The notes beneath the pieces are model-generated. The model was not told the origin of the DNA and ran no database searches. It saw only the letters and a list, made by a program, of their open reading frames with translations. Below, in pieces: positions 48,628 to 61,231 of a stretch of DNA of 64,000 nucleotides (position 1 is the first letter of the stretch; every line of letters starts with the position of its first letter). Origin of the DNA: Entoloma clypeatum (Eukaryota; Basidiomycota; Agaricomycetes; Agaricales; Entolomataceae); NCBI GenBank assembly GCA_963565915.1, contig OY751489.1, forward strand, positions 3,410,001 to 3,474,000. Direction: 5' to 3'. A program made the position numbers and the translations under genes.

Positions 48628-49629
48628 AGGGCGACCTTACGATCCGAGACTCAAACTCAGATACTTGCAAGGGAGATCCAAAGTTTAGATTGAGCAGTCT
48701 GATAAGTAATACAACACATACCTTGCAAGGGAGATCCGAAGAGAAAGTTCTAAGGATTCCCCTGCAAGCTAGCTAGATAAATAGTAAAATGAGATATGAA
48801 ATAAGAGATAAAATGAGATGCATGAATGATGAGCAATGATCAGGAGTAGGGATGGGGGATGAATGGAAACAAGATGAATGATAGTACCTGTGATCCGATG
48901 TGCGGAGTAGTGGATGGGGGCGGAGTCGTCGGATGCGGAGAGGTGGATAAGATGTCGGAGACAGCGGATATGATTGGAGGACATCAGAGATGATGGAATA
49001 GAAAGGAAAGGAAGAAAGGAAAGGAAAAGTGAAAAGTGAAAGTGGTTGCCCTTACATCACCCCCCCTTCAAGGCATGGCGTCTCGACATGTCAGGTGAAA
49101 CAAGTCGAATATTGCGGCGGTGATCCACTGCGGAGCTCCCAGATGACATCGGTAGAAGTCGCAGACTAGGCGCAGAGTGTGGACATTGTCTTCTGCTTCC
49201 CAGGAATTCTCTTCGTAGCCATACCCCTTCCATTTGACCAAGAATTGAAGCTTGCCTCAATGCAGTCAGCTGTCCAAGAGGTTTTCAACATCGTACTCCA
49301 ATTCTTCTCTGACTATGGTCGGAGGTGGAGGAGAGCGGACTTGGTGTTGGAAAGGGTCGTTGGGAACTAGTGAAAGTTTGACAACATGGAATACTGGGTG
49401 AACACGGGACATGGAAGGGGGAAGGCAAAGTTTGTAGGCATGTGTTCTGACAGGTCAGACCGCTGGGAAAGGGCCTATGTATCGATGTGCAAGTTTTTTT
49501 GTGGGTCGGGTGGTTTTGAGGTCTGATGAGTCTAAAAAGACCTTGTCCCCCAGGCGGAATGTCGGAGTGGTGCTCCGATGCTGGTTGTAGTATTGCGCCA
49601 TGTCGTCTTTTGCCTTTGTCAGTGCTGCG
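48628..49629 (-). repeat. Left arm of a near-perfect inverted duplication (LTR plus 3' coding end of a second Ty3 element)
   Basis: On the minus strand this is the end of an integrase/chromodomain gene followed by a polypurine tract (aaggggggg) and an LTR-like unit (48628-49055) with inverted ends TGTAAGGGC/GCCCTTACA. The sequence is repeated in opposite direction at 50443-51418. Translated segments of both arms are identical. Confidence 0.75.
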
Positions 49630-51010
49630 GAAGGTTTGCTCTACTTCAGGGATCGTATCCATGTTCCTAACAATCCCCAACTGCGTCATCAGATCCTCAC
49701 ACAACACCACAACACACCGGTGGCCGGACATCCTGGATGGTGGAAAACCTTGGAACTGGTGGCCACACATGTCTCGTTTAATAGGTCAATATTGCAAGAC
49801 ATGCGACCCATGCCTCCGCACCAAGGTCCGATGCACTCCGCCCTCTGGAGAGCTCAATCCACTACTGGTCCCCACGGAGTGATGGCAAGTAACCAGTGTT
49901 GACTTCATTACTGAACTACCAGAAGCCCACGGCTACGACGCTATCATGGTGGTAGTGGACTCAGTAGGGAAGTGGGGACACTTCATCCCGATGCACTCCG
50001 ACATCTCCGCACTCGGGACTGCACGCTTCTATGTTCAAACGTCTGGAAACTCCACAGACTACCAGAGGCCATTGTCTCTGACCGAGGACCACAGTTTGTC
50101 GCCAAGTTCACACGCAAACTATACAGGCTGCTTAGCATTAAGGTTGCTGCCTCGACAGCCTACCATCCGCAGTCGGACAGACAGACGGAGCAGGTCAATC
50201 AAGGATTGGAACAATACCTTTGCCTATTCATCAATGAACGTCAAGACGATTGGGACGAATGGCTTCCAATGGTGGTATTTGCATACAACAACCATGTTCA
50301 CGCATCGACACATCAAACTCCATTCTACATTGACACCGGCTGCCATCCGCGCATGGGATTCGAACCTCGCGAGAAGCGGACGGAGATCGAGGTGGTAGCG
50401 GATTTCAGCCAGCGGATGAAGTCCGCTCTAGAGGAGGCTCGCGCAGCACTGACAAAGGCAAAAGACGACATGGCGCAATACTACAACCAGCATCGGAGCA
50501 CCACTCCGACATTCCGCCTGGGGGACAAGGTCTTTTTAGACTCATCAGACCTCAAAACCACCCGACCCACAAAAAAACTTGCACATCGATACATAGGCCC
50601 TTTCCCAGCGGTCTGACCTGTCAGAACACATGCCTACAAACTTTGCCTTCCCCCTTCCATGTCCCGTGTTCACCCAGTATTCCATGTTGTCAAACTTTCA
50701 CTAGTTCCCAACGACCCTTTCCAACACCAAGTCCGCTCTCCTCCACCTCCGACCATAGTCAGAGAAGAATTGGAGTACGATGTTGAAAACCTCTTGGACA
50801 GCTGACTGCATTGAGGCAAGCTTCAATTCTTGGTCAAATGGAAGGGGTATGGCTACGAAGAGAATTCCTGGGAAGCAGAAGACAATGTCCACACTCTGCG
50901 CCTAGTCTGCGACTTCTACCGATGTCATCTGGGAGCTCCGCAGTGGATCACCGCCGCAATATTCGACTTGTTTCACCTGACATGTCGAGACGCCATGCCT
51001 TGAAGGGGGG
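49630..51010 (+). pseudogene. Integrase and chromodomain of a second Ty3 element, 5'-truncated
   Basis: Plus-strand pol end: a zinc-binding HHCC part (HHNTPVAGHPGWWKTLEL, YCKTCDPCLRTK), the DDE core (SVDFITELPEAHGYDAIMVV, AIVSDRGPQFVAKFTRKLYR, AYHPQSDRQTEQVNQGLEQY) and, near the end, a chromodomain (KLQFLVKWKGYGYEENSWEA). Three or more TGA codons stand where Arg is expected. RT, protease and gag are absent. It lies in the centre and right arm of the inverted duplication. Confidence 0.8.
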
Positions 51011-51418
51011 GTGATGTAAGGGCAACCACTTTCACTTTTCACTTTTCCTTTCCTTTCTTCCTTTCCTTTCTATTCCATCATCTCTGATGTCCTCCAATCA
51101 TATCCGCTGTCTCCGACATCTTATCCACCTCTCCGCATCCGACGACTCCGCCCCCATCCACTACTCCGCACATCGGATCACAGGTACTATCATTCATCTT
51201 GTTTCCATTCATCCCCCATCCCTACTCCTGATCATTGCTCATCATTCATGCATCTCATTTTATCTCTTATTTCATATCTCATTTTACTATTTATCTAGCT
51301 AGCTTGCAGGGGAATCCTTAGAACTTTCTCTTCGGATCTCCCTTGCAAGGTATGTGTTGTATTACTTATCAGACTGCTCAATCTAAACTTTGGATCTCCC
51401 TTGCAAGTATCTGAGTTC
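50443..51418 (+). repeat. Right arm of the inverted duplication
   Basis: Mirror copy of 48640-49629. The LTR-like unit begins tgtaagggcaaccac at about 51016 and stops short at 51418 (..ggatcgtaag), lacking the last dozen bases present in the left copy. It then passes directly into the right subterminal array. Confidence 0.75.
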
Positions 51419-51429
51419 GAGTCTTGGAT

Positions 51430-51815
51430 CGTAAGCCAATGCCCACCACTCGAGCCCAACGGCCCTCTCTTGTCCCCAATGGCCCTCTCTCATCCCCAAC
51501 GGCCCTCTCTTGTCCCCAATGGCTTTGACTCATGCCTAACGCCCTCCATTCACGCCCAATGGCTTCGGCCCATGCCCAATGCCCACCACTCGAGCCCAAC
51601 AGCCCTCTCTCATCCCCAACGGCCCCGGCAAAGAGGGGGAAGGGAGAAAGAGGGATTGTGTTATTATGTGATGTAACTTGCCCCCACTGGTGCCCAACAG
51701 CCTCGACTCACACCTAACACCCTCCCTTCATGCCCAACAGCCTCGACTCGCATGCAACGGCCACCACTTGACCCCAATGGCCCCCACTCATGCACAACGG
51801 CCGGTCCTCATGCCC
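51430..51815. repeat. Right subterminal 20-bp array, inverted relative to the left array
   Basis: Copies like caacggccctctcttgtccc, the reverse complement of the left array's unit. A short non-repeat spacer (51626-51680) with gggaaggg interrupts it. Confidence 0.7.
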
Positions 51816-53094
51816 TGTAAATACATATATAGACCCTGTATTAACACCGAAAAGACAAGTTTAGACTGGTCTCAACTGGTCTTTTACCAGTCTTCAAAAA
51901 AAAAAAAATTTTGTTGAGACTGAAGACCGGGGCCATCCCAATTTAGCAAGACCGAGACTGCAGTCTCGGTCTATTTCGGTTCATTTTTCGTTTCAGTCTG
52001 GTCTGGTTCCAGTCCTATTGGACTGAACCTTGAAACACTACTGCCAGCAAAGCACACATTTATACCACCATAGACCTCCGACATGCATACCACCTAGTCC
52101 GCATCGCTGAAGGTGATGAATGGAAAACTGCATTCTGCACTCGCTATGGATCATTTGAATGGTTAGTCATGCCATTCGGATTGTCTAATGCACCTGCAGC
52201 CTTCCAATGTTTTATGAACGACATCTTCTCTGACCTTCTGGACATCTGCGTTACCGTTTACCTCAATGACATCCTGATCTACTCCGACAACCCCAAGGAA
52301 CACAAAAAACATGTCTGAGAAGTCCTCCAACAACTCCAACAACACGGTCTTTATGCCCATGCCAACAAGTGCAACTTCTCCGCTGAAACTGTAGAATATC
52401 TTGGATTTATCCTTTCTCCCGACGGACTCAAAATGTCGGAAGCGAAAGTCAAGATTATTCAGGATTGGCCTGAACCGCACAGAGTGAAGGACGTCCAGTC
52501 CTTTTTAGGTTTTGCAAACTTTTACTGATGTTTCATTCCATTCTATTCCAACATCACTATTCCACTCACTCGTTTAACCAGGAAACATGCCACTTGGCTG
52601 TTCTCCGACGATGCTCGAACCGCTTTTAATGACCTGAAAAAGGCATTTACCACCGCTCTGATCCTGACACACTGGATCCCCGACTCTCCGATAATTGTCG
52701 AAACCGACGCATCCGACTATGTCCTAGTGGCTATTCTGTCGATAATCACCTCCGACAATGAAGTCCACCCCGTCGCATTCAATTCCCACACCTTCACGGC
52801 CCCCGAAGTAAACTATGACACCCATGATAAGGAACTTCTTGCCATCTATAAAGCATTTAAAATTTGGCGCCATTACCTCAAAGGCTCCAGTACTCCGATT
52901 GACGTTGTTACCAACCACAAAAATCTCGAGTATTTTGCCACCACCAAAGTTCTTTCATGCTGACAAGTCTGATGGTCAGAATACCTTTCTCAGTTCAACC
53001 TCGTCATCTGATCCCGCCCCGGCTGATTGGGAACTAAACCCGACTCTCTAACAAGATGTTGGGATGTCTACCCTAAAGGGGGAAATAGCGACTA

Positions 53095-54170
53095 CGTATC
53101 AGGATTTTGTCAGATGCCTGGCATGACCAGATAGGTCTGATAAGTGGTTGCAACTCTGCAATGAAAAAATAATACATTACAAGGGCTTATTAACTGCTGC
53201 AAGCCCTGTATTCAAGGATCATTTGCTGATGCTTCACCCAGTAGAATGACAGAATATGACCTGGATACATTAGTATTAGAATGGATGAGATGAGATTTTA
53301 AAGCAATCATACAAGGCCAGTCTTTCTGAGGAAAATAAAGTGTAATAATATGCTTAAAAGTGTTGCATGGAAGGATCATCAGCTGACCTGATTACATCAA
53401 TATCAGAGGAGGTAATAATGTAATATGATACAATGTCAGCCTTCCTGAACATGAGAGAGGCTTACCAGTGAGTGGGCTGGAATTATTGTATCAAAGGATC
53501 ATCTGCTGACCTAGATACATCAACCTTTACAAGAGTTTATCATCGATTGTCAGCATGATATTTTCTTGTCCATCAAGATCAGTATTGCAGCAGCTGATAA
53601 AATATATCTAACTATAAAGAGACACTAGTTTATACTATCGAAAGCATTCCTTATAAAATTTAATCTATATAGCTTATGAAGAAATGTGAAAGGAGTGTGT
53701 TGTTGAGCAGTGAAAATTCAAACTAAAATGTTTTGTGGCACAGCCACAACCCTGTGGCCTGAACAAAAAGCAAAAAACAGTTTGTCAGCACATTACCTGC
53801 CTAAAGGAGATTGTGTGATAAGTGTGTGTGATGAATTTGAGATAATTGTGTGATCAACTAAGAGCCTTGAGAAATGAGATACATGAGTTAAATTATCAAG
53901 TATGAGAAAATAAGCAACAAAGTCAACAAAGAAATAAAGACTTTTTATATGTTTCTTCAGATCAAATTATAATGCTAGAGAATATTTTGTCACTCTGTGC
54001 ATTGATGACAACAACAAATCAACCTTATCAACACAGATAACTGTATTATACATCTGGTGAGGTTGGATCATATTAGGCCACTCTGGCACAAGACCCAACT
54101 CTGGCAGGCCTTGCAAATTTTGCCAACGCACAGGTGGATTATCTGGGATTATCTTTTCATATATAAGACT
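53095..54170. other. AT-rich sequence separating RNase H and integrase of the LTR element
   Basis: The pol frame reads to about 53095 and resumes near 54240 with integrase. The DNA in between has no coding signal. It contains three related blocks with aaggatcatctgctgacct (near 53213, 53370 and 53498). It looks like a third insertion, but I found no paired termini. Confidence 0.45.
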
Positions 54171-54239
54171 GATAGATATTTTACATTTTCTAAGACCTTA
54201 TCTAGCCTTAACCTAACCATCCCATTTTGTTCCTGACTC

Positions 54240-54958
54240 CGACGACCTCCGACTCCGAGTCCTACAGCACAAGCACAATCATATGCTTGCCGGACCACCC
54301 AGGTCAGAACAAGACACTTAGTCTCATTCAGCGCGATTATACCTGGCCCAGAATATGAGATTTTATCAAACACTATTGCAAGTCATGTACCACTTGCATG
54401 CAATCGAAGCCACAAAGACACAAGCCTTACGGCCTACTCAAACAGCTTCCAATCCCCAAATGTCCTTGGAATTCTATCTCAATGGATTTCATTGAGACCC
54501 TTCTGACCTCTGACAACTTTGACTCCATTCTCATTATCGTTGACTGATTAATGAAGCAAAGTATCTTCATTCCAACAACCATTCACTGCACCTCCAAAGA
54601 CCTTGCCGTACTCTTTGTATTACATGTCTTCTCTAAACACGGCGTTCCCGAACATGTCACCTCCGACTGCGGCCCCAAATTCGTCTCCCGATTCTTCCGA
54701 TCTCTTGGAAAGGCTCTAAACATGACCCTCCACTTCACCTCCAGTTACCACCCCGAAGGCAATGGCCAAACCGAACACACTAACCAGACCCTCAAACAGT
54801 ACTTGCGGATATTCTGCAACTACCAACAGGACAACTGGTCCACTCTCCTCCCAATTGAGGAGTTCATGTACAACAACACACCTAGTGCTACCACTGGCAT
54901 ATCTCCCTTCTTTGCTAACAAGGGTTACCATCCAAACATTACTGTTCACCCGGAATGA
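54240..54958 (+). pseudogene. Integrase part of the LTR retrotransposon
   Basis: HPGQNKTLSLIQRDYTWPRI, CKSCTTC, then the DDE core: NSISMDFIETLLTSDNFDSI (first Asp), VPEHVTSDCGPKFVSRFFRS (second Asp) and SSYHPEGNGQTEHTNQTLKQ (Glu). Interrupted by TGA codons at 54350s, 54546 and 54956 and a one-base frame change near 54297. Confidence 0.8.
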
Positions 54959-54988
54959 GACCTTGCCTCTTCCCAAGCCTGATCCTTT

Positions 54989-55561
54989 GTGACTGACTTA
55001 GACAAACTTCACCAAGAACTGAAATCCACCATCTCCGACGCTCAACGACATTACCAAAAGTCCTCTGACAATAATTGGATCACAGCTCTGACATTCTCTG
55101 TTGGACAACAGGTTTTCGTCAAAGCACAGTCCTTCCGCACAACACGCCCATCCAAGAAACTCTCAGAAAAGTACTTGGGACCATATGAGATCATTGCACA
55201 ACCCGGCACACACTCCTTTATCCTCCGACTTCCCGACACATTCTGTGGTGTTCACCCCATCTACCACGTCTCCATGCTTGAACCCGCAACTCCGAACACC
55301 ATTCTGAATCGGACCCAACCTCTGCCTCCTCCAATTGACATCAATGGAGAACTTGAGTATGAGATTGCTGAAATTGTCGACTCAAAGATCAACCGACAAC
55401 ATAGCTGCAAGCTACTATATTTTGTCCGTTGGTTAGGATATGAAAACACTGATGAAGAATTCTCTTGGCTACCAGCCAATGAACTGGAAAACGCCCCCGA
55501 GCTTGTCTCCGACTTTCATTCTGCTTATCCCGACAAACCGGGTCTGCTCACGTCGCTCTGA
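54989..55561 (+). CDS. Integrase C-terminus with chromodomain (open segment)
   Basis: This 190-codon frame is free of stops. It holds the GPY/F-type region (KKLSEKYLGPYEIIAQPGTH, FCGVHPIYHVSMLEPA) and a chromodomain: YEIAEIVDSKINRQ, LLYFVRWLGYENTDEEFSWL and ANELENAPELVSDFHSAYPD. In chromoviruses this module steers integration to methylated-histone chromatin. It is part of the broken pol gene upstream and can hardly be made on its own, although its ATG at 54989 opens the frame. Confidence 0.8.
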   Translation: MTDLDKLHQELKSTISDAQRHYQKSSDNNWITALTFSVGQQVFVKAQSFRTTRPSKKLSEKYLGPYEIIAQPGTHSFILRLPDTFCGVHPIYHVSMLEPATPNTILNRTQPLPPPIDINGELEYEIAEIVDSKINRQHSCKLLYFVRWLGYENTDEEFSWLPANELENAPELVSDFHSAYPDKPGLLTSL

Positions 55562-55589
55562 AACAAGAAAAAACAAGTACTATTGCTAT

Positions 55590-56511
55590 CTACTTAGTAT
55601 GTTGTTTCTTGTTTGACAGACCCTCCTCCTTGTCCGACTCCGCCTTCTCCGACAGCTCTGAAATCGACATGTCGGAATCATCTGACAGCTCCGGCAACTC
55701 CAACCTTTTCCTATTCATGATGTCCTTCCTTATTCTCCTCGTGATCCTCTTCTCCAGCCTTAATTCGTGGGTCTCCTCCCTCGTATCCATCTCCGACTCC
55801 GACTCCTCCTCCGACACCTCCGGTGACTTTTGTTGGTACTTGGTATTCACTGAGTCTTTGACTGCTGTTAGCAGTCGCCTCACCTGCCTCGTCTCCACCA
55901 GTATCATCTTGAGGACACCCAAGATGGTGTCCTCCAATGGCATCTCCGATGCCTTTTTCTTTCCCTTATTCTCCTTCACCGTTTTATTCATCTCCTTCAC
56001 CTCTGACGCTCTGACCTTGCACTTATTCTTGTCTTTGACACAACCCTTGCAGGACGACTTATTCCTAAAAACAAAAGGTTAAAACAGAAAAGATGAACCA
56101 AAGAAGAACTCACTCATCACATTCGCACTCGACGCCCTTCACAATGCACCTATCACAGGTGCCGACCCTGACCCTGACTCCCGACCCCTCTCCGACCTTC
56201 GCTGACACCTCCTCCACCTTCCTCTTCTTCGTCGCCCTCTTCTTCTTCTCTGCCTGCGGCTCCCCTGACCCCTTGCCCGACATGCCTTGCGCAGCGGCCA
56301 CCTCATCAGCCCTCTTCTGAGCTGCCAGCTCCAATGTCCGATGTGTCTCCTCTGCTAACCGCGCCGCCTCTGCAGCCCTCTCTTCCTCCGCTCTCCGCTC
56401 CTCCTCAGCCTTCTTGGCAGCCTCCTCCTCCACCACTTGCTTCTTAGCCTCCACCTCCATGAGTTTGGCCTGTAGCGCCTCCAATTCTTTTTGGAATTCG
56501 TTTGCCAACAT
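55590..56511 (-). CDS. Antisense two-exon gene inside the LTR element: coiled coil plus Zn2Cys6-like cluster
   Basis: Exon 1 56511-56114 and exon 2 56064-55590 (stop) sum to 873 nt, 290 residues; the 49-bp intron has GTGAGT..TTTAG borders. Residues 1-80 form an Ala/Glu/Lys-rich coiled coil (EFQKELEALQAKLMEVEAKK, AEEERRAEEERAAEAARLAE). A basic stretch KKKRATKKRK follows. Then come six cysteines as C-x2-C-x6-C-x8-C-x2-C-x6-C, the exact spacing of the fungal Zn(II)2Cys6 cluster. The first three are in exon 1 (CDRCIVKGVEC) and the last three in exon 2 (CKGCVKDKNKC), so splicing completes the domain. The rest is charged with acidic SDDSDMSISELSEKAESD near the end. No in-frame stop, unlike the sense-strand pol. 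It lies between the chromodomain stop and the 3' LTR. A nuclear DNA-binding role is inference only. Confidence 0.75.
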
Positions 56512-56677
56512 TTTGAGGATTATTGGAAGAGTTTTTCAAGTGGAAAGATAATGGGGGGAACAAGAAGAAAGAACCACTCAGACAGTATTTTCAACCAACA
56601 CATCACATGACACAGTTCATGCGCACTGACCACCTAGGTCCTTAGGCCTCATGGGTTCGGCCCTAAGGGGGAAATAC

Positions 56678-57154
56678 TGTTACATTCCGATCAGCTCCGA
56701 CGATTTCTGACCAATTCTGACACCTCCGACATTTTGACTAATACTTATTATGCATACTTACTGTTATGAATCTCGTTACTACATACATTACTTACATCCA
56801 ACCATTTTACTTATGTTAAGCATCTCCAACAGCCACTCATTATCCGACTCTGATGAAGCCACACATCCTCCAACATAGTATTTAAACTTATGTAGAATCA
56901 TGTATTAGCTTCAGTTTGAATATCAACTTAGATTCAACATCATACCTCCCGTCCTCTTTCCGACTCTTAACTTGAGTCTGACCTCTGACCCTCCGATCCT
57001 CCGAACCTCCAAAATAAGGACACTGATATATTAGCGAGGGAGCAACACACAAGTTGAAGCCAAGTCCTTGCCCCTATGTTGCATGCGCTCCAACCCTCCG
57101 ACCCTCCGATGCGTTCGACGTAGCTCTGACATTTTTGTCAATCAGTTCTTAACA
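56678..57154 (+). repeat. 3' LTR
   Basis: 477 bp; pairs with 45221-45696. Preceded by the purine tract cctaagggggaaatac and followed by the target duplication CACCA. Confidence 0.9.
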
Positions 57155-57159
57155 CACCA

Positions 57160-58034
57160 ATGCATCCCGCACGTCCCGTGTCCCCCACACGTGCGAGGTC
57201 TCCCTCATCACCTGTGATCTCTCAGTTACAGCCCTGCTCCACCCCCGCCGTTCCTGCATGTCACCCGCCATTTCTCGTGTCTCCCGCTGTTTCTCGTGTT
57301 TCCCACGTTCCCTGCCTTTCTCACGTGTCCTGTCCCATTTGTCGCGTGACTCACACCATTGCTTGGGGTGTGAATGGAGGAGGAGGCATTGATGGAGGGG
57401 AGGGGATGGAGGAGAAGGGAGTGGAGGGAGGTGATGGGGGGAGGCAAGAAGATGTTATGTGGGACTTGAGAGAGATATTTTTTGACTTTCAGACATTGCC
57501 GAGGTCGGCAAGTTCCGATGTTTCACTTGGCTGCCTGGGTCTGGAACCTGCCGAGTATAGATCAAGAACCGAATCTCGCCATGTCTAAGTTCTTGTCTTT
57601 CCCCCATCACTCCCTTCTCCTCCATCCCTCCCTCCCCTCTGTTCACATGAGGGCCACGAGGCCCTGTATAGGTAAGCTCTCCACCATCCATGTTGGGTCA
57701 GACCACTGACCAACCACACAAGAAACAGCAGGAGGCCCGTGAGCAAGCAACAGCAGGAGACATAGCGGGGGACGCGAGAAACGGCAGGAGACACAAGAAA
57801 TGGCAGGGGACATGCAGAAATGGCAGGGGAAGCGAGGAATCTTTTCACTTTTCCTTTCCTTTCTTTCTTTCCTTTCTATTCCACCATCTCTGATGTCCTC
57901 CAATCATATCCGCTGTCTCGACATCTTATCCACCTCTCTGCATCCGTCGACTCCGCCCCCTGAAAGACCGGTCCGGTCTCAGTCCACCCGTTTTTGGGGC
58001 AAAAAACCAAACCAAACCAAACCCTCAAACACTA
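57160..58034. mobile_element. Fragment of another palindromic DNA element with related end
   Basis: 57958-58034 is the inverse of the left end at 46945-47021 (..aaccaaaccctcaaacacta). Inside, a degenerate array of about 20 bp (cccgctgtttctcgtgtttc) at 57190-57360 faces its inverse (agaaacggcaggagacacaa) at 57715-57850. A 115-bp piece of the second Ty3 element's LTR-like unit (57843-57957) sits next to the end. The left end of this element was not found; the LTR retrotransposon inserted beside its first array. Confidence 0.6.
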
Positions 58035-59343
58035 TGTGAGAGCGGGGTCAAATGACTGAGGGGAGGCGACAATAAGGCATAGCACGAGTCTACTCACAAG
58101 TGACCCGGATCCTTACCCACAAGTACTTGTTTAGCTCAAAGTGAAACTCAGAACCTCACAAGTACATTCCCATGGATGACTTGGACTCGCGGGTATGAAA
58201 CCCATGAGTGTACAAGTACTCATTGACCCACAGGTCAACTGAAGTACTCATGAGTACCCATACAAGTACTTGGCTATATCACAAAAGAGTCTTCAAAAGA
58301 TGATATAATTAGCAAACTCAGATATTCTAGTCAGTAGTGACCTCAGTTGTTCGAGGATTGGAGGTTACCGCACCCCCTGGAGTTTTCTTTCCTGCTCGTC
58401 TACTCTTATCCTTGAATGTTGCTACAATCTTGCTATGCGGAATGAGGTCAGGGAGTGTCACCCAAGAACTGAGAACCATGGCTGCACAAGTCGATTCTAG
58501 CACCTGACTTTGTTGAATTTGTGGTACACCTTGTTTGAGTCTCTCGTTGCTTGTCACCATTGAATGTTGAACATTGAACATTCTGGTGACCTACATATGT
58601 CCTGCACATTTGCAGTCTCTTCACAACTCATCCATTGCTCTTTTGTTTACCTCCTATCGACCGGCTCATCCGATCTGCACAAATTCGGCAATATGTCCCG
58701 ATTTCTAGAAGGTGAGCATTTCATGTGCTCTCTCTTTGTTCTTTTGCTTTCAACCTACTGTATTCGAGTCATAAACAGTTCCGCCTTGGCCACACCTTAT
58801 GGGTGGTAAAACCTCTGCAATTTCGGGAGTTTGGAACGTATCTGCTCGACGTATGGCGAGAGGTGAGTCACTGGTTATCTACAATCCGTGCATGCTGCGC
58901 TAGCCCCTGTTGCCTTACAGTTAATCTACTGCCTCTGAAATGACACCACAGAGTGACCCCTCAACTAGATCTGAACCATCACATCCACACACCCCATTAT
59001 CATGGGCAGAAAGACCACCAGCAACATCGCACACCTCCCACCTGCCGTCGTGGGGCAAGCTGCATCACCAAGCGTGCCAATCATATACAACAACTCAACG
59101 GCAAATCAGAAGATGTATGAGATGTTAAATTTGATGTTTCTGAAGGTAAGTCAGACATCTTTGTAATCTCAGGTGTACAGTACTAAGGCATTTGTTGTGT
59201 CACAGGTGGATAACCAACTACGACCGCAGCAGATTAACGCCCTGAACTGCTCTGTACACGCTCAGAATTTGTTGGTAAGTCATTATTGTATTTTCTGCAT
59301 GATATCTCTAACAATTTTCAAATGCAGAATGCTTCCGATGTTA
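58035..59343 (+). pseudogene. Intron-containing gene remnant of unknown identity
   Basis: Exon-like pieces with good borders: 58693-58711 (MSRFLE) then GTGAGC..CAG; 58779-58862 then GTGAGT..CAG; an exon ending at about 59145 before GTAAGT; 59206-59274 (VDNQLRPQQINALNCSVHAQ) before GTAAGT..GCAG; and 59328 onward (NASDV), which is cut by the Tc1 insertion and continues after 60942 for eight codons to TAG. Direct words like cacaagtacttg and gactcg at 58085-58275 have inverse relatives at 61130-61225, so the gene may belong to a larger DNA transposon. I do not recognise the protein. Confidence 0.4.
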
Positions 59344-60939
59344 CAGTGACTCAAATAATTGTCTGGATGTTTGAGCTATTTTGATTGTTTGCTCAATAGC
59401 TCCAGGGGCAAGGCACACAAGACCAAAGTGTTGGTGTATGACAGATGGAGCTACATCGTGGCTATAGAAATATTTAACAATTAGGTAATTCCAATAAGTT
59501 CTCACAGAGATATATACAATCCAATCTGGTAACTCATCTGGACAATTATTTGAGTGGGTATCAGAAATACAGAAACTGGTCATTTTAGTACTTGGTATGG
59601 CCCCCCTTTGCCTTGATTACTGCTTCCACTCTTCTAGGCATACTTTCTATCAATCTCTGACACACCTCTGGCTCTATTTTGTCCCACACCTCTGCTACCC
59701 TGTCCCAAATCTCCCAAACTCTCTTGGCCTGTGTTGGAAACTTGCAAAGCTCTACTTTGATGTGTTGCCAAAGGTGTTCAATAGGATTTAGGTCTGGAGA
59801 TTGTGGAGGCCAGTCCAGAAGAGTGATATCATTGTTCTCCATCCAGATTCTGGCCTTGTTGGAGGTGTGCTTGGAGTCATTGTCCTGCTGGAATATGAGA
59901 TCCTCTGCAGGAATCTCACATTCCTCCATGCTGGGCAATAAGTAGTTGTCCAGAATGTTCACATACTGGTCAGCATTCATCCTCCCCTCAACTTCTGCCA
60001 GTTGTCCCACACCATTCCAACTCATACACCCCCATACCATGATATTTCCACCACCAAACTTGACTGTTCCCTGGATTTCCCTCTCAATCAGCCCCTCTCC
60101 CATCTGTTTCCACACCCACTGCTTCCCATCTGACCCCAGCCTGTTGATTTTTGTTTCATCTGACCAAACTACCCTCTTCCAGTCCTCCACAGTCCAGTCC
60201 TTGTGCTTTAAAGCAAAATCCAAACACTTCTTTCTATGCCTTGTGGTAAGCAAGGGCTTTTTCTTCTTTGTTACAGCTTTGAATGAGTGTTTCTTGAGAA
60301 CATTCCTCACTGTCTGTGAGCTGACTGGATTGGAGATGATGGTGTTGATGTGTTTTGTTGCCTGAACAGCATTGGCAGCCTTTCCAGTGATGATTTGTGT
60401 AACGATAGAGCACTGAGCATGGGCAGAAAGCTTTGAAGGATGACCAGCAGAAGGGATTTGTCGAGTAGGAAGGAGATTCTGAAGGATCTCAGACACTGTA
60501 GACTTCCCAACACCAACTTTGGAGGCAATATGTTGAATGGAACAATGGTTGGAGACTAGAGAAATGATGTTTTCCTTCTGGGCAGAGGAGATGGGGCGCA
60601 TGATGAATTGTGGAATGCTGAGAATATTAGCTCTGGTTATATAGCTTGAAATCAGGCACTATCTATGATAGCATCTAGCATTACTATAGTAACCATCTGG
60701 CATCAGATTCTGATATTTCTGATTGTCACCCAAATAATTGTCTGGATGAGTTACCAGATTGAATTGTATATATCTCCATGGAAACTTATTAGAATTACAT
60801 AATTGTTATATATTTCTATAGCTACAATGTAGCTTCATCTGTCATACACCAACACTTTGGTCTTGTGTGTCTTGTCCCTGGAGCTATTGAGCAAACAATC
60901 AAAATGGCTCAAACATCCGGACAATTATTTGAGTCACTG
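59344..60939 (-). mobile_element. Intact Tc1/mariner-like transposon
   Basis: 1596 bp flanked by TA duplications (59342-59343 and 60940-60941). Ends CAGTGACTCAAATAATTG and its inverse; the inverted repeats extend over about 220 bp each, with substitutions. Carries one uninterrupted transposase on the minus strand. Everything needed for mobility appears present. Confidence 0.9.
59585..60601 (-). CDS. Tc1-like DDE transposase, full length
   Basis: 338 residues without intron or stop. Paired HTH at the N-terminus (SAQKENIISLVSNHCSIQHI, ASKVGVGKSTVSEIL). Catalytic triad: first Asp in VVWSDETKINRLGSDG, second Asp in FQQDNDSKHTSNKARIWME, Glu in PPQSPDLNPIEHLWQHIK, with 34 residues between second Asp and Glu (DD34E). 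GGGNIMVWGCMSWNGVG is the usual glycine-rich block. The transposase cuts out and inserts the element at TA. Codon use differs from the host genes (more A/T at third positions). Confidence 0.92.
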   Translation of the reverse strand: MRPISSAQKENIISLVSNHCSIQHIASKVGVGKSTVSEILQNLLPTRQIPSAGHPSKLSAHAQCSIVTQIITGKAANAVQATKHINTIISNPVSSQTVRNVLKKHSFKAVTKKKKPLLTTRHRKKCLDFALKHKDWTVEDWKRVVWSDETKINRLGSDGKQWVWKQMGEGLIEREIQGTVKFGGGNIMVWGCMSWNGVGQLAEVEGRMNADQYVNILDNYLLPSMEECEIPAEDLIFQQDNDSKHTSNKARIWMENNDITLLDWPPQSPDLNPIEHLWQHIKVELCKFPTQAKRVWEIWDRVAEVWDKIEPEVCQRLIESMPRRVEAVIKAKGGHTKY

Positions 60940-61231
60940 TATTTCGAAGTTAGATACTGATAGTTCGTAGGGATGATATGCACAAAACACTTCTCAAGCC
61001 AGCACGTCATCGTTGGACGATTGCTGATTTAGTACCATGTGACAAGACAACTCTTGAGATGTTGAGAAGTAATGAGAGTACTACATGATTTCGGGACCCA
61101 AGATGATGTATCATTGACTGATGGTGGCAAGTACCTGCCTGAGTACCAACACATCATGTAACTCGAACTCGGATCCATGCGAGTATTGACCCACAAGTGA
61201 CATTGATCCACGAGTCCAATTACTTGTGAGT

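Follow-up and report, generated by a model that had tools for sequence, protein, structure and literature searches.

The closest described counterparts of the gene considered here are the aORF-3R genes of plants (Grande gene23, RIRE2 and the TRP28 open reading frames, or ORFs, of Retand), which likewise lie antisense between pol and the 3′ long terminal repeat (LTR). A nuclear or DNA-binding role has been suspected for their products, but their function is not known (PMC7264820, PMC11963269). The roles of 3′-end antisense genes in general were described as not yet determined, with no clear similarity of aORF-3R products to other proteins (PMC7264820), and conserved domains, chiefly TRP28, were later reported in Retand (PMC11963269). 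The present work concerns an antisense gene in a fungal element. It is found in a stretch of 64,000 nucleotides (nt) from the basidiomycete Entoloma clypeatum (assembly GCA_963565915.1, contig OY751489.1, positions 3,410,001 to 3,474,000 of the forward strand), called the window below, where it lies between the chromodomain end of pol and the 3′ LTR of a Ty3 retrotransposon.

Organization of the antisense gene

The gene occupies positions 55590–56511 of the minus strand in two exons with a predicted product of 290 amino acids (aa). It is placed 28 bp past the pol stop at 55561 and on the opposite strand, which is the position and strand of an aORF-3R gene. Its parts and those of the surrounding element are as follows.

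56114–56511, minus strand: exon 1, 398 nt, with the ATG, a long charged stretch, a KKRK-type basic stretch and Cys1–Cys3
56065–56113, minus strand: intron, 49 bp, phase 2, GTGAGT...TTTTTAG (GT-AG), between Cys3 and Cys4
55590–56064, minus strand: exon 2, 475 nt including the stop, with Cys4–Cys6, a likely helical segment, and an acidic and basic C-terminus
56019–56157, minus strand: zinc-cluster-like motif C-x2-C-x6-C-x8-C-x2-C-x6-C, Cys119–Cys148 of the product, interrupted by the intron
56512–56677, minus strand: leader of 166 bp from the antisense ATG to the 3′ LTR, holding the purine-rich, polypurine-tract-like AAGGGGGAAA at 56665–56674 (plus strand)
54983–55561, plus strand: 3′ end of pol, SH3_Tf2-1 and chromodomain, stop
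56678–57154, plus strand: 3′ LTR, 477 bp, TGTTAC...TTAACA, with 9 TCCGA (20 counting CpG-decayed forms) and 0 TCGGA
52034–54958, plus strand: broken pol of the window copy, with RNase H by Pfam, integrase by Pfam below its cut-off, and reverse transcriptase by eye

An earlier note on this DNA, made from the letters alone, had proposed an intact two-exon gene on the minus strand between the chromodomain stop and the 3′ LTR, with six cysteines in the spacing of fungal zinc-cluster regulators, three on either side of a 49-bp intron. The coordinates proved to be exact and the spacing is as claimed. Without splicing, the antisense frame runs into a stop within the first four intron bases (GAG TGA). 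By composition, the N-terminal region of the product is a long charged stretch rich in E, K, R and A, the KKRK-type stretch in exon 1 may be a nuclear localization signal, and the helix in exon 2 was judged by eye. An extra cysteine occurs two residues past Cys3 in some copies of the family, the window copy among them.

In the window copy, SH3_Tf2-1 (PF24626) and Chromo (PF00385) exceed the Pfam cut-off, giving a chromovirus-type integrase end. Six copies with two LTR matches had their flanks read; four showed exact 5-bp target repeats, one matched at 4/5 positions, and one was truncated in its 3′ LTR. The LTR ends (TG..CA), the 5-bp target repeats and the SH3/chromodomain integrase end together mark the element as a Ty3 chromovirus. 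No second LTR match for the window copy was found within 49000–58000, and because its pol is also broken, this copy is a dead, 5′-incomplete element.

Copies in the genome

When the 922-bp region was compared with the 60-Mb genome, 45 match rows were obtained (best 40 of 184 candidates scored), and 40 copies, including that of the window, made up the comparison set for what is called family 1 below. A full frame of 281–318 aa was read in 29 of the 40 copies, with 27 of these 29 starting with ATG; the remaining 11 are broken, truncated or unreadable by a simple two-exon model. The position of the ATG is conserved in 34 of the 40 aligned copies, and three of the other six have no letters there. 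The intron is bordered by GT...AG at the same site in all 40 copies, begins with GTRAGT in 37, and is 48–50 bp long. All six Cys codons read TGT or TGC in 40/40 copies, and the spacing with x8 holds in 29/29 full frames. Among the 29 full copies, each of the other five frames contains a stop in at least 24 copies for exon 1 and at least 28 for exon 2. A 30-mer from exon 2, allowing three mismatches or fewer, occurs 140 times in the genome, versus 0 for the reversed control.

The most conserved stretch of all is the spacer that separates the antisense stop from that of pol (window 55557–55589), with 26-mers found at two mismatches or fewer in 40/40 copies. It resembles a splice acceptor of the antisense strand (TTTTTTCTTGTTTCAG), and its low CpG content may account for the conservation.

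Homologs in two further Ty3 families

Searching with the pol end recovered family-1 copies whose 1245-aa frame is intact, as well as a second family (family 2) that has a frame of 1246 aa and is 67–68% identical. Identity to family 2 is 74% for the pol ends of young family-1 copies and 71–73% for those of a third family (family 3), many with a 1231-aa frame; overall, the pol ends of the three families are 68–74% alike. Six-cysteine homologs of the gene lie antisense past the chromodomain in both of these additional Ty3 families of the same genome. In family 2 (one copy, L059), the homolog past pol is 287 aa long with the spacing C-x2-C-x6-C-x10-C-x2-C-x6-C and a 52-bp, phase-2 intron between Cys3 and Cys4 (an alternative acceptor gives 43 bp), and its C-terminus reads EGPPAKKAKTQ compared to EGPSNKKQRTK in a family-1 copy. 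In family 3 (one copy, L028, frameshifted near the C-terminus), a 50-bp, phase-2 intron is again flanked by Cys3 and Cys4, with x11 spacing. In families 2 and 3, the LTRs were identified by a purine-rich tract, TGTTAT and TGTCAT starts, and TCCGAC clusters, rather than as aligned pairs.

The antisense proteins evolve faster than pol, with 25–38% identity in the aligned parts versus 68–74%. Shuffled sequences reached the observed similarity score 3 times of 200 for families 1 and 2, once for families 1 and 3, and 0 times for families 2 and 3. Homology of the three families' genes appears to be the best reading, since place, strand, intron site and phase, and the six cysteines all agree.

More distant Ty3 copies (31–36% pol identity; window 50955 and 49116, L014, L012, L017 and L027) had no antisense gene of their own within 1.9 kb downstream. 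This negative is a weak one, as several of the copies are truncated or run into family-1 copies, and window 50955 and 49116 are the arms of one inverted repeat.

Linkage to pol

For linkage, a row was counted if it covered exon 2 (101 rows in family 1, 117 in family 2 and 99 in family 3; 317 in total); rows with exon 1 only, short fragments and two spanning rows of family 1 were dropped. Pol rows were the best 150 per search, and all linkage counts hold among the matches listed. At least 81, 86 and 31 exon-2 rows of families 1, 2 and 3, respectively (at least 198/317), lie within 400 bp of a pol end on the opposite strand; in 0/317 does a pol end on the same strand lie next to the row. Family-3 exon-2 rows, which were matched without the C-terminus, end 196–206 bp from the pol ends. 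Seen from the other side, the antisense gene stands beside 81/137, 86/101 and 31/34 pol rows of the three families.

The 1245-aa pol frame is absent from all 20 family-1 copies read with about 10 kb around them, and it is intact in 22/137 family-1 pol rows elsewhere in the genome. Among the 51 rows with the longest pol (1245, 1246 or 1231 aa), at least 38 have the gene next door, and the exon-2 row is free of stops in 37; only exon 2 was judged in this comparison.

Selection on the antisense gene

Selection was analyzed in family 1. Under the GY+F3X4 codon model, omega, the ratio of nonsynonymous to synonymous substitution rates (dN/dS), was 0.243, with kappa 10.7 and a log-likelihood of −5836.2. 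Fixing omega at 1 on the same tree, with the best kappa from a grid reaching 10, gave −6014.6, that is, 178 worse. By the earlier note's own yardstick, a dN/dS near 1 with broken frames in other copies would have counted against the gene; the value is 0.24. Raw dN/dS nonetheless overstates selection, because the intron interior (divergence of 0.050) and the post-stop spacer (0.044) diverge as little as first codon positions (0.045); third positions stand at 0.120 and the leader at 0.141. Omega is also biased downwards by CpG decay, which is near saturation; among shared variants, 68/79 of the possible synonymous and 75/93 of the possible nonsynonymous CpG changes are present. In old family-1 copies, CpG transitions of this kind would account for a pol riddled with TGA (CGA to TGA) and suggest CpG methylation.

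The earlier note had set the absence of stops in the gene against the TGA-riddled pol. The frame is indeed open, but the contrast is partly an effect of CpG, since only 2 stop-making CpG transitions are available in the antisense gene (303 codons) versus 4 in the pol end (192 codons). With CpG near saturation and so few such sites in the gene, the stop-free frame carries less weight as evidence of selection.

Because of this bias, a safer test was made with non-CpG variants only, comparing those shared by at least two copies with those private to one copy. The ratio of nonsynonymous to synonymous variants was 30:39 for shared variants and 81:28 for singletons (Fisher p 6e-5). Measured against opportunities of 1871:536, shared variants gave an odds ratio (OR) of 0.21 (p 4e-10), and singletons an OR of 0.82 that was not significant (p 0.41). 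The same test on the pol end in 20 copies gave 0.17 for shared variants and 0.98 for singletons, and the antisense gene in the 16 of those 20 loci with full frames gave 0.19 and 0.87. In exon 2 alone, singletons also disfavor amino-acid change (OR 0.51, p 0.02), so neutrality is less clean there. By frame, the shared-variant OR was 0.205 in the true frame and above 1 in both other coding-strand frames and in two of the three sense frames; the third sense frame, whose third positions coincide, gave 0.25, yet it has stops in 28/29 copies in each exon. Distinct gaps are multiples of three in 14/21 cases in exon 1 and 14/16 in exon 2, versus 0/4 in the intron and 3/16 in the flanks.

The antisense gene and the pol end are thus both conserved in transposing lineages and drift after insertion. 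As shared variants are depleted in amino-acid change and whole-gene singletons look neutral, this is therefore a gene of the element and not of the host.

Identity of the predicted protein

A Zn2Cys6 cluster follows the spacing rule C-x2-C-x6-C-x(5-12)-C-x2-C-x(6-8)-C, and the proteins of all three families have this spacing (x8, x10 and x11). A six-row profile compared with all PDB sequences at E≤10 gave two matches, both to GAL4 and both over the six cysteines, with E values of 2.5 and 9.3; these are suggestive, not significant. Pfam scans of the antisense proteins gave no match to a basic leucine zipper (bZIP) or to TRP28 (PF04195). The whole product had no homolog in a protein search at E≤1e-3 (7994 candidates scored), nor did sister residues 105–300 and family-2 residues 85–215 at E≤1, in a collection whose fungal share is not known; in IMG/VR, 286 pattern stretches included no relative. 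Because the fungal share of the collections is not known, these negatives are no evidence of restriction to the species, and similar hypothetical proteins may be numerous in mushroom proteomes.

Genome-wide, PF00172 gave 59 matches, 39 of them over the cut-off, which fits a fungus. Multi-copy PF00172 matches (C12:78105, C6:1196315 and others) were considered as possible relatives and, when traced in L051 and L053, belonged to another repeated gene and not to a retroelement antisense gene. At these loci (L051 2016–3258 and L053 1070–2510), a repeated gene pair is seen, in which a PF00172-type zinc-cluster ORF of 262–271 aa is followed by a similar second ORF.

TCCGA arrays in the LTRs

In 23 family-1 LTRs, TCCGA exceeds expectation more than any other 5-mer, at 14.3 per LTR versus 1.1 expected, and its orientation is nearly uniform (328 TCCGA vs. 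1 TCGGA). The family-2 LTR part holds 6 versus 0.9 expected and 0 reversed, and the short family-3 LTR part holds 2 versus 0.3 expected, with two reversed copies derived from a neighboring family-1 LTR. Across the genome, clusters of three TCCGAC with short gaps number 3541, compared to 27 for the reversed pattern. Among the first 100 clusters listed, 61 fall inside the extents of 22 listed elements that cover 4.5% of that stretch, and 59 of these 61 are on the sense strand of the element; by their letters, some of the clusters outside listed elements look like solo LTRs. Around a copy with a 1245-aa pol at C1:617217, clusters pile up at C1:612479–612798 and 618972–619420, like two LTRs. Density is highest in the LTR and lower through pol, and window 1–46000 has little or no TCCGA excess (17 vs. 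24 expected; 44 vs. 30 expected). In an unrelated family with a 1356-aa pol, one of five anchors on C1 below 2.96 Mb has a single triple-TCCGAC place (by eye, among the matches listed).

Known zinc-cluster sites offer a point of comparison. Pho7, a Zn2Cys6 protein, binds TCG(G/C)(A/T)xxTTxAA, with two sites in direct repeat at pho1, and its site at tgp1 is TCGGACATTCAA, starting TCGGA (PMC5559640). The latter 5-mer is the reverse complement of TCCGA.

A proposed role and its alternatives

The earlier note's view of an intron-containing antisense gene with a zinc-cluster-like motif, carried by the element itself, is borne out, and among the roles that it offered, an accessory regulator is the best reading. 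The gene, its place and strand, the intron borders, the six cysteines, the occurrence in three families, the selection signature in family 1 and the LTR arrays are all established. Taken together, these features would suit an antisense accessory gene of related Ty3 families, retained under purifying selection as the elements multiply, that probably encodes a zinc-cluster protein binding the TCCGA repeats of its own LTRs and raising or protecting LTR transcription, an account to which we give about an even chance. More tentatively, and with the balance tilting against it, these fungal families may carry a self-addressing system, in which a protein reads one-way arrays and switches on or shields the LTRs, and protein and arrays diverge together.

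The steps of such a system can be set out in order. The sense RNA would serve as genomic RNA, and in it the gene reads backwards and the intron is not spliceable; the intron would survive each round of copying because, lying backwards in that RNA, it goes unseen by the spliceosome. A separate antisense transcript, putatively starting in or near the 3′ LTR, would be spliced and yield a protein predicted to be nuclear. This protein could dimerize through its N-terminal charged stretch and bind half sites of the CGG type (antisense-strand GTCGGA) within the LTRs, and binding might then raise or protect LTR transcription, through activation or anti-silencing. The sign of the effect is the weakest step; repression would be a poorer fit than activation or anti-silencing to the CpG in every motif and to the decay of CpG sites in old copies.

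Several observations weigh against this account. PF00172 is reached only below threshold in one family-1 member, which scores 11.2 bits where the cut-off is 21, and there is no PF00172 match in the other four antisense proteins scanned (two of family 1, one each of families 2 and 3). Taken by itself, sequence comparison gives weak evidence of homology across families, as the shuffles (3, 1 and 0 of 200) indicate, and selection was measured in family 1, with an omega lowered by CpG decay. TCCGA is enriched in the pol sense strand (16 vs. 2.6 expected in the window) and in the whole element, and so is not confined to regulatory DNA; a purely promoter role does not explain the pol arrays, whereas an element-wide target like that of VANC, discussed below, would. 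The sole control from another family, a 135-bp LTR-like repeat, shows no TCCGA enrichment; co-variation of protein and motif is a prediction, and the likeness to the Pho7 site concerns its TCGGA part. Finally, 13/51 longest-pol rows have no antisense exon-2 partner among the matches listed, so the gene is possibly dispensable. Four of these 13 show another trace of the gene, namely exon-1 rows at C9:4902542 and C10:3428504, the exon-2 30-mer at C2:1755691, and, at C9:2224988–2225584, an exon-1 row accompanied by a short fragment of exon 2 (dropped from the counted rows); 9/51 show none among the matches listed.

The strongest rival, which we consider somewhat unlikely but not far-fetched, is an accessory protein acting away from the LTR, in the complex that carries out replication or integration, where it might bind RNA or complementary DNA or be a chromatin-targeting partner of the chromodomain integrase. 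The selection signature resembles that of the chromodomain end and does not favor one step over another; a protein with basic, Cys-rich and acidic segments could equally well bind nucleic acid or chromatin, and TCCGA is present throughout the element. On the other hand, an antisense gene with an intron would be expressed separately from Gag-Pol, GAL4 is the only (insignificant) PDB match, and the arrays peak in the LTR.

A brake on copy number, in which the antisense protein would repress sense transcription from the LTR much as HBZ acts against Tax of human T-cell leukemia virus (HTLV), seems improbable to us. HBZ and APH-2 are indeed antisense-strand proteins whose spliced transcripts begin in the 3′ LTR (PMC3736048), and position and strand are alike here. 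However, the gene is selected as elements spread, and no stop interrupts exon 2 in 37/38 listed pairs with the longest pol, observations that do not call for a brake.

A host gene captured by the element and maintained for the host, the other possibility raised by the earlier note, is very hard to credit and does not fit the variants, for although this genome is rich in zinc clusters (59 PF00172 matches, 39 over the cut-off) and exon-2 singletons disfavor amino-acid change (OR 0.51, p 0.02), whole-gene single-copy variants look neutral (OR 0.82, p 0.41), the 30-mer marks 140 copies, and all listed pol neighbors are on the opposite strand. Equally implausible is a functional antisense RNA (double-stranded or silencing) with an incidental reading frame. 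Non-coding antisense RNAs are known in other elements (PMC7264820), but amino-acid changes are depleted among the shared variants and exon gaps, in contrast to those of flanks (3/16) and intron (0/4), are mostly multiples of three (14/16, 14/21), all of which points to coding selection.

Other elements in the window and genome

Besides the element described above, the window contains a perfect 994-bp inverted repeat (48636–49629 and 50442–51435; 100% complementary, 812 bp apart) with a Ty3 SH3/chromodomain-type pol end, which reflects either an inverted duplication of very recent date or an error of assembly. A Tc1/mariner-type element lies at 59342–60941, with a 357-aa open frame on the minus strand, DDE_3 and HTH_Tnp_Tc3_2 domains, and 228-bp inverted repeats (91%). 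Elsewhere in the genome, the Ty3 family with the 1356-aa pol has dozens of copies, many of them equal-scoring, and likely reflects a recent burst.

Comparison with known systems

Compared to plant aORF-3R genes, the gene described here belongs to a fungal chromodomain Ty3 element, has a conserved intron splitting a zinc-cluster-like motif, has had its coding selection measured, and has no PF04195 match. The word “intron” is absent from the main text of both PMC7264820 and PMC11963269, and “antisense” from the main text of a paper on LTR retrotransposons in fungi (PMC3248453); searches of the open-licence literature listed no report of an antisense gene of the zinc-cluster kind in a fungal LTR element. 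Antisense ORFs at this place in plants are thus what was known, while the chromodomain Ty3 setting, the intron in the zinc-cluster-like motif, the measured selection, the three families and the LTR arrays are new.

A second likeness is to HBZ of HTLV-1 and APH-2 of HTLV-2, each an antisense regulator beside the 3′ LTR, with splicing known there (PMC3736048) and predicted here. Both proteins are nuclear (PMC11963269), and a nuclear location is likewise predicted for the fungal antisense protein. The comparison is one of plan: HBZ is a bZIP protein of a human retrovirus with its first exon in the LTR, whereas here both exons are internal and the motif is of the zinc-cluster type.

The zinc-cluster proteins GAL4 and Pho7 share the six-Cys spacing, and the Pho7 site, which starts TCG(G/C)(A/T), is found in direct repeat (PMC5559640). 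The present proteins differ from them in falling short of the Pfam cut-off, in having the cluster in mid-protein, and in being carried antisense by a retrotransposon. A Zn2Cys6 cluster is usually found near the N-terminus.

VANDALs are DNA transposons. The VANC protein of Arabidopsis VANDAL elements is borne by the element and co-evolves with a short motif that is dense in the element's own DNA (PMC5735166). The TCCGA arrays (14.3 per family-1 LTR vs. 1.1) and the fast-diverging protein are the features that recall it here, again by plan, with binding and loss of methylation measured for VANC and predicted for the fungal gene. The question of what 3′-end antisense genes do becomes directly testable in this system, with purified protein and a reporter, as it offers a DNA-binding-type motif, coding selection like that of the chromodomain, hundreds of natural variants, neighbors with a long open pol, and a candidate target motif. 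If the protein does bind the arrays, these Ty3 families would provide a retrotransposon counterpart of VANC-type anti-silencing.
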